In this document: one piece after another, positions 4,140 to 36,001 of the stretch
Numbering within the stretch: the first letter of the stretch is position 1
Layout: every line of letters starts with the position of its first letter
Assembly (NCBI RefSeq): GCF_003337245.1
Contig: NZ_QPJE01000012.1
Coordinates: 1-64,000, forward strand
Origin: Halanaerobium sp. MA284_MarDTE_T2
GTDB taxonomy: Bacteria; Bacillota; Halanaerobiia; Halanaerobiales; Halanaerobiaceae
Length of the DNA: 64,000 nucleotides
Direction: 5' to 3'
Made by a program: the position numbers and the translations under genes
The notes under the pieces: generated by a model
The model's database searches: none
Seen by the model: the letters and a program-made list of their open reading frames with translations, nothing else
Told to the model about the DNA's origin: nothing

Positions 4140-4204
4140 CTCAACTCATCTCTCCTCATTTTTTTTTGAAAAACTAATCTAATCTCGTCTCTTCTCTAAA
4201 ACTA
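4140..4204 (-). promoter_or_regulatory. TRAP-type RNA binding site in the trpP leader
   Basis: In the leader RNA, GAG/UAG triplets recur every five bases. Five lie at plus positions 4194, 4189, 4184 (GAG) and 4179, 4174 (UAG). After a gap, four GAG lie at 4155, 4150, 4145 and 4140, the last one touching the ATG. A further UAG lies at 4202. The second block contains the GAGGAG ribosome-binding site. NN-spaced (G/U)AG repeats are the hallmark of TRAP (MtrB) targets, and the Bacillus trpP leader has the same layout. No T-box features are seen. Confidence 0.75.
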
Positions 4205-4231: not shown

Positions 4232-4260
4232 ATTATATATTATTTAAAAATAAATGTCAA
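4232..4260 (-). promoter_or_regulatory. Consensus sigma-A promoter of trpP
   Basis: On the minus strand TTGACA (4255-4260), a 17-base spacer and TATAAT (4232-4237) form a perfect housekeeping promoter. Transcription would start near 4225, giving an untranslated leader of about 85 bases that holds the triplet repeats. Confidence 0.85.
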
Positions 4261-4275
4261 AATATTTTATGTTTA

Positions 4276-4313
4276 TGTACCGGGTACGAAAAGGCCTTTT
4301 CGTACCCGGTACA
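4276..4313. repeat. 38-bp perfect palindrome after flgJ
   Basis: Perfect inverted repeat with no loop: the left half begins TGTACCGGGTACGAAAAGG and the right half is its exact complement. It lies 20 bases after the last flagellar gene and 16 bases before the trpP -35. There is no T tract on either side, so it is not a classic intrinsic terminator. It could stop RNA decay or mark the end of the operon, or be a protein-binding site. Confidence 0.7.
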
Positions 4314-4332
4314 AATGAAAATATTCACATAT

Positions 4333-4653
4333 TTATTCTGATCTCAGCTGAACTACAAGTTTTCTATTTAAGTCTGCCAGTAGACCCTGCTTCCCTGCCA
4401 TAAGGCTGTATTCTTTATATAGCATATCTGTAAATACATCTTCCGCATACCCACCATCAATAAGTTTTTCATCGGAAAGCGTATTTCTCATTGCTGAAAA
4501 CATTTTTTCGATAAATATAGATGTGAATTCTGCAGCAGTTTCTTCAAGCTTTTGACCATTTTTAACTGCATTTTTTAGCTCAGCTGACTTTCTCGTTTCC
4601 ATCTGCTGCAGAGCTGAATATCTGGCACTGCTGTCTAAATTATTTATCTGCAT
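4333..4653 (-). CDS. flgJ: Rod-binding protein, FlgJ N-terminal domain only
   Basis: 106-residue protein matching the rod-binding domain of FlgJ, which caps and helps assemble the flagellar rod in the periplasm. The segment FTSIFIEKMFSAMRNTLSDE, the following GGYAEDVFTDMLY and a C-terminal helix rich in leucine are the domain's core. There is no C-terminal muramidase domain, as is common outside gammaproteobacteria; another hydrolase must open the peptidoglycan. It is the last gene of the flgB operon, directly after flgI. Confidence 0.85.
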   Translation of the reverse strand: MQINNLDSSARYSALQQMETRKSAELKNAVKNGQKLEETAAEFTSIFIEKMFSAMRNTLSDEKLIDGGYAEDVFTDMLYKEYSLMAGKQGLLADLNRKLVVQLRSE

Positions 4654-35801: not shown

Positions 35802-35841
35802 ATTCTACAGCAGCATCAGCTATAGAATTAAAAAATAGCTT
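35802..35841 (-). promoter_or_regulatory. Expression platform between riboswitch and flgB
   Basis: Just after the aptamer, AGCTAT/ATAGCT and AATTCTA/TAGAATT inverted repeats overlap; the second hairpin, with a GCTGATGCTGCTG loop region, is followed by TTTCTTTT and could act as a weak terminator. The AGCUAU within the aptamer could pair with the AUAGCU here, giving exclusive folds. Whether the switch is ON or OFF with ligand cannot be decided by eye. Confidence 0.45.
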
Positions 35842-35909
35842 TTGCAGCCTGGCAGTCATTTTGTATTAGACCCATAGCTTTGCGTCACCGGTTTTCACCG
35901 ATTTTGCCA
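35842..35909 (-). ncRNA. Cyclic di-GMP-I (GEMM) riboswitch aptamer
   Basis: On the minus strand the RNA reads GGCAAAA, a CGGU-GAAA-ACCG hairpin with a GNRA tetraloop, then the highly conserved GUGACGCAAAGCUAUGGGUC and UAA, a short arm, and AUGACUGCCAGGCUGC, the tetraloop-receptor side. Order and spacing match class I c-di-GMP aptamers. It lies in the leader of flgB, as does a known c-di-GMP-I riboswitch in Clostridioides difficile. Confidence 0.93.
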
Positions 35910-36001
35910 AAAATAAATAAGATTAAAACGTAAAATAAAGTTATTTTATTAAAAAATAGCGTAATATGTAATTTTTACTCTAATAATAACTCTTCTTATT
36001 T

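Follow-up and report, generated by a model that had tools for sequence, protein, structure and literature searches.

In Bacillus subtilis, TRAP hinders ribosomes directly at trpP, trpG and ycbK, where its sites lie in the translation initiation region (PMC11255114), the site at trpP (yhaG) being credited to Sarsero 2000 and Yakhnin 2004 as cited in PMC4347634 and PMC11255114; our comparison with B. subtilis trpP rests on these two papers, which summarise the original work. The same triplets and protein are used in the TRAP trp-operon attenuator, where the triplets precede a terminator. We analysed a 64,000-nt stretch of the genome of Halanaerobium sp. MA284_MarDTE_T2 (the window), and conclude with high confidence from its sequence and that of its relatives that the trpP leader is a TRAP-binding site predicted to repress trpP translation in the Bacillus manner, since the site exceeds chance expectation, mtrB is present in the genome, the leader is conserved, the triplets co-occur with TRAP, and a T-box is found where TRAP is absent. 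The locus and the B. subtilis site have target genes of one family and ligand-gated proteins of one family, and both place G/UAG triplets within the initiation region, for which a ribosome block is predicted here. The locus differs in its lineage (Halanaerobiales), in its division into two regular blocks by a conserved A-rich gap, in that the block of its relatives extends into codon 2, and in belonging to a genome without trpE, trpA or anti-TRAP.

The leader, located on the minus strand, reads 5' to 3' ...TTTTAGTTTTAGAGAAGAGACGAGATTAGATTAG-TTTTTCAAAAAAAAAT-GAGGAGAGATGAGTTGAG-ATG and contains nine G/UAG triplets in two blocks, five and then four, with every step within a block being 5 nt (Table 1); TRAP-regulated trpP initiation sites as a class have about 9-11 NAG triplets, mostly G/UAG, with short spacers. 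The initial annotation, which gave no strand, had described precisely this arrangement, with the last block covering the Shine-Dalgarno sequence and abutting the ATG, and both points were confirmed, as was its perfect sigma-A promoter with a short leader: the match to consensus is 12/12, with a 17-bp spacer and a leader of ~85 nt. Besides the two upstream UAG triplets that lie out of register, a third occurs at 4198-4196 (minus strand). No terminator-like hairpin was found in the leader, which thus lacks the overlapping antiterminator and terminator hairpins that follow the triplets in the trp-operon attenuator, and an Rfam scan of the window and the trpP locus revealed no T-box (RF00230) upstream of trpP. 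Folding of the leader was no better than that of shuffled sequences (z 0.28), and a special RNA structure was dismissed on this ground.

Table 1. Features of the trpP locus (window coordinates) and, in the last three lines, T-boxes upstream of trpP in the TRAP-less family f7 (coordinates within each locus).
Feature	Position	Strand	Basis or remark
trpP, tryptophan transporter gene, 174 aa	3615..4139	-	PF17099 TrpP, 4.1e-47, 160.5 bits
trpP start codon ATG	4139-4137	-	
TRAP-site block 2 (predicted), four GAG at 5-nt steps, last one abutting start codon	4140..4157	-	sequence
Block 2 triplets	GAG 4157-4155, GAG 4152-4150, GAG 4147-4145, GAG 4142-4140	-	
Shine-Dalgarno AGGAG within block 2	4152..4156	-	sequence; 12 nt from ATG, rather long
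Inter-block gap, 16 nt, A/T-rich, UUUUUCAAAAAAAAAU	4158..4173	-	sequence
TRAP-site block 1 (predicted), GAG GAG GAG UAG UAG at 5-nt steps	4174..4196	-	sequence; sole five-triplet run of the genome
Block 1 triplets	GAG 4196-4194, GAG 4191-4189, GAG 4186-4184, TAG 4181-4179, TAG 4176-4174	-	
Upstream UAG triplets out of 5-nt register	4214-4212, 4204-4202	-	sequence; possible extra contacts
-10 element TATAAT	4232..4237	-	invariant across 12 aligned leaders
-35 element TTGACA	4255..4260	-	TTTGAC invariant across 12 aligned leaders
T-box, L007	1060-1319		UGG specifier
T-box, L009	1058-1324		UGG specifier
T-box, L035	1797-2058		UGG specifier

The closest named relatives of the TrpP protein are from Halanaerobium species (75-82% identity; 82% in Halanaerobium congolense). 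The genome (2.47 Mb, 99.8% complete) carries a single mtrB copy encoding TRAP (G000:C40:721-942; 73 aa; PF02081, 129.2 bits), a gene whose presence the initial annotation had proposed to check and whose relatives of solved structure are all MtrB/TRAP. The residues of B. subtilis TRAP that contact RNA (F32, E36, K37, D39, K56 and R58; PMC3184956) are all kept in an alignment to solved MtrB. Triplets over the Shine-Dalgarno and start region, a TrpP gene downstream and a TRAP with its RNA-binding residues, as in the class, were thus all found. The initial annotation had called TRAP patchily distributed, with no description known to it for this lineage; the gene is not rare here, being present in 32 of the 38 genomes of Halanaerobiales and, across the phylum, in 200 of the 398 genomes sampled. 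Anti-TRAP, proposed for the same check, was not found in this genome in a PF15777 search: its match is a 383-aa ORF, and the PF15777 matches were rejected as anti-TRAP, nearly all being DnaJ-sized ORFs of ~340-404 aa, which we take to be DnaJ from their size and zinc-finger match. One 78-aa ORF, in G032, is also among these matches.

Among the 26 trpP leaders taken from genomes of the order with TRAP, 24 have four or more triplets spaced by 5 nt, whereas the three leaders of family f7, which has no TRAP, reach two at most; triplet spacing is therefore kept in orthologous leaders where TRAP is present. Neither a lack of mtrB nor a loss of this spacing, the two outcomes that the initial annotation had named as refuting, was thus observed. 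In Halanaerobiaceae, GAG (or UAG) lies at -13, -8, -3 and usually +2 relative to the A of the ATG, preceded in most by AAG or GAG at -18, then by an A-rich stretch and usually by three to five triplets farther upstream. The trpP of this genome has GAG at -18 and lacks the +2 triplet (ATGAAA). In its relatives the AG after the ATG is retained with AGA, AGT, AGC or AGG as codon 2, and since this codon varies while AG stays, it is the bases and not the residue that are conserved. Conservation within the site is strongest in block 2, which some relatives have alone. The 16-base gap, which the initial annotation had judged unusual, is not so: most Halanaerobiaceae trpP leaders have an A-rich inter-block gap of similar length, and gapped sites also exist in other TRAP-positive lineages. 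The gap in most relatives is 8-12 nt up to the AAG or GAG at -18, equivalent to 13-17 nt up to the GAG at -13, or mostly 11-15 nt from start to start to the -18 triplet, with no strict 5-nt register, as would fit either a loop or skipped TRAP pockets.

Tandem trpP copies (G015, G016, G019 and G021) have the site on both copies and, in G015, G016 and G021, that of the second copy falls within the ~110-120-nt intergenic space, as predicted by control at the ribosome-binding site. Two TRAP-positive relatives, G006 (with a weak TrpP match) and G007, have no convincing run, while in G005, G002-G004 and G010 the triplets number only about four, which might not suffice for tight binding. In G008 (L006), the trpP leader has a triplet block upstream, then a terminator-like hairpin, and another triplet block on the trpP Shine-Dalgarno, an arrangement with possible double control.

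We extended the comparison to 68 further trpP leaders from 67 genomes across the phylum. Close to the start codon, runs of three or more triplets spaced by 5 nt were observed in 36/36 TRAP-positive versus 1/32 TRAP-negative leaders (Fisher p ~1e-18, a value that ignores shared ancestry and so overstates the evidence); here as within the order (24/26 versus 0/3), the site is present with TRAP and absent without it, as expected for the class. The sole TRAP-negative exception, G120, is of the same family as the TRAP-positive G079 and its assembly comprises ~450 contigs, so that mtrB may have been missed. Conversely, Rfam scanning identified a T-box at 10 of 13 TRAP-negative versus 0 of 7 TRAP-positive trpP loci. 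The Trp specifier was read in three of the ten T-box loci, those of f7, where UGG follows GAA at a position read by eye. Tryptophan T-boxes sense uncharged tRNA-Trp by antitermination; absent from the trpP leader studied here, they act on the same gene and nutrient signal in TRAP-less members of the same order, and in f7 the T-box apparently stands in place of TRAP. More generally, control of trpP appears to lie with TRAP or, in many cases, with a tryptophan T-box. The Bacillus-type TRAP control of trpP put forward in the initial annotation is supported by mtrB, the PF17099 match of TrpP, the conserved spacing and the absence of triplets without TRAP.

Homology searches revealed no match to trpE or trpA in this near-complete genome, and a single trpB above the cut-off (G000:C1:144459-145604; L172 1453-2673; L184). 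The organism thus seems to have lost tryptophan synthesis and, with trpE and trpA absent, should depend on imported tryptophan or indole, TRAP persisting without a biosynthetic operon; import, perhaps together with indole salvage by the lone TrpB, would be the only tryptophan source visible here. The lone trpB carries GAG-AUG-GAG-GAU-GAG over its best Shine-Dalgarno sequence (GGAGG, 8 nt before an ATG) and, after a gap, GAG-UG-GAG-AA-GAG inside the gene. In Halanaerobiaceae, GAG/UAG triplets are conserved over the Shine-Dalgarno and first codons of this gene. We evaluated such patterns with a chain score in which steps of 5 and 6 nt are rewarded and a single gap is tolerated: the pattern is kept in ten Halanaerobium genomes, with scores of 4.4-5.4 versus shuffle means of 1.4-1.8, and operonic trpB, as a control, scored 1.0-2.0 in nine of ten genomes and 3.7 in one. 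The lone trpB is thus likely to be a second TRAP target, although much of the pattern is coding sequence. Triplets before the trp operon, which the initial annotation had suggested looking for, were found in trpE leaders of several relatives, this genome having neither trpE nor trpA. In relatives, triplet runs occur upstream of trpE, trpD and lone trpB, several then followed by terminator-like sequence, and TRAP thus seems to act widely on the tryptophan genes of the order. For lone trpB, runs followed by terminator-like sequence were seen in L165, L170, L171, L186 and L188 (from H. orenii, G031, and other Halanaerobiales), which suggests TRAP attenuation of this gene.

Tryptophan-dependent binding and ribosome blocking at trpP are inferred from B. 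subtilis. In tryptophan-replete cells, the TRAP ring with bound tryptophan would wrap the leader RNA, and its binding to block 2, from the Shine-Dalgarno up to the AUG, would make the ribosome-binding site inaccessible. Block 1 would add affinity, with the A-rich gap either forming a loop or passing over pockets. Under tryptophan scarcity, TRAP would let go of the RNA and the importer would be made. A variant of this account, in which two different TRAP rings bind the two blocks or block 2 alone matters, is possible but rather improbable: consistent with it, block 2 is the best conserved and is the only block in some relatives, whereas block 1 lies at a narrow distance in most Halanaerobiaceae and nine triplets fit a single ring of 11 or 12 subunits. 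We consider it very unlikely that TRAP acts on the trpP leader mainly through transcription attenuation, as in the trp operon. The terminator-like sequences after triplets in the trpE and lone trpB leaders of relatives, and the hairpin between two blocks in G008, would fit such control, but the trpP leader studied here has block 2 on its Shine-Dalgarno. The lack in it of a terminator, a T-box or a fold beyond that of shuffles favours control at the ribosome-binding site.

That the triplets are simply a by-product of a purine-rich leader and its Shine-Dalgarno, with no role for TRAP, is hardly credible, even if GAG is indeed part of Shine-Dalgarno sequences and A is abundant in the genome. Isolated four-triplet runs do arise by chance: the genome has four, three of them within the trpP leader, and the reversed pattern, used as a control, yields eight. 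The remaining one (L005, at the ribosome-binding site of an AcoR-like sigma-54 activator) was set aside given these eight control matches. Block 1 is the only five-triplet run on either strand of the genome, though in genomes of the order the reversed pattern gives five-triplet runs by chance about 0.5 times per genome, and it is position and the second block, not the five-triplet run alone, that make the trpP site decisive. Taken whole, the leader has a chain score of 8.0, against a mean of 1.9 and a maximum of 5.7 for dinucleotide shuffles (0/20,000 reach 8.0), while the leaders of the other ORFs in the window (starts of 48 ORFs of at least 150 aa, trpP excepted) score at most 2.0. Moreover, the pattern tracks the presence of TRAP. 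A mini-ORF, AUG-AGU-UGA (4149-4141), ends just 5' of the trpP AUG in this sequence and in many relatives, and might govern trpP through coupled translation. We give this virtually no credence: it is destroyed in G015 (AUU AGC UGA) and G021 (AUG AGU UUA), where the triplets are retained, and was rejected as a non-conserved feature that looks like a by-product of the triplets.

A search of the open literature, with most subscription journals outside its reach, yielded no report of TRAP control of trpP in this lineage. TRAP control of the tryptophan importer, here extended to Halanaerobiales, appears to be the known Bacillus mechanism in a much wider range of bacteria, and the trpP leader reports closely on TRAP presence across the phylum. 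We favour, with some reservation, a broader reading in which TRAP, within this lineage, has turned from a regulator of biosynthesis into one of import and indole salvage, controlling trpP and a lone trpB through two-block sites over the ribosome-binding site with a looped-out gap, in a genome without trpE or trpA, and in which trpP alternates across the phylum between TRAP and a tryptophan T-box according to TRAP presence. What goes beyond routine annotation is that TRAP persists in an apparent tryptophan auxotroph, after loss of its best-known biosynthetic operon, that a link to indole salvage is predicted and that TRAP alternates with the T-box; this alternation on one gene offers a natural system for how nutrient sensors replace each other.

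Triplet runs were also noted at other genes. In G022, which has no trpE, a strong run resembling that of a trpE leader lies upstream of an aldehyde:ferredoxin oxidoreductase-like gene pair (L119, G022:C5:16371), either as a leader remnant after operon loss or as a new target. About seven G/UAG triplets directly precede a nadA-like (quinolinate synthase) gene in L112 (G011:C1:420908), a new target or a chance occurrence, and the run of five that lies upstream of a sodium:neurotransmitter-type symporter in L128 (G036:C72:2041), from an incomplete genome without TRAP, is probably due to chance. Within the window, a perfect 36-bp palindrome, GTACCGGGTACGAAAAGGCCTTTTCGTACCCGGTAC, present in a single copy at 4277-4312, lies in the interval from the trpP promoter to position 4333, where the neighbouring minus-strand ORF ends, and the sole Rfam match is a c-di-GMP-I riboswitch at 35840-35918 on the minus strand (65.1 bits).
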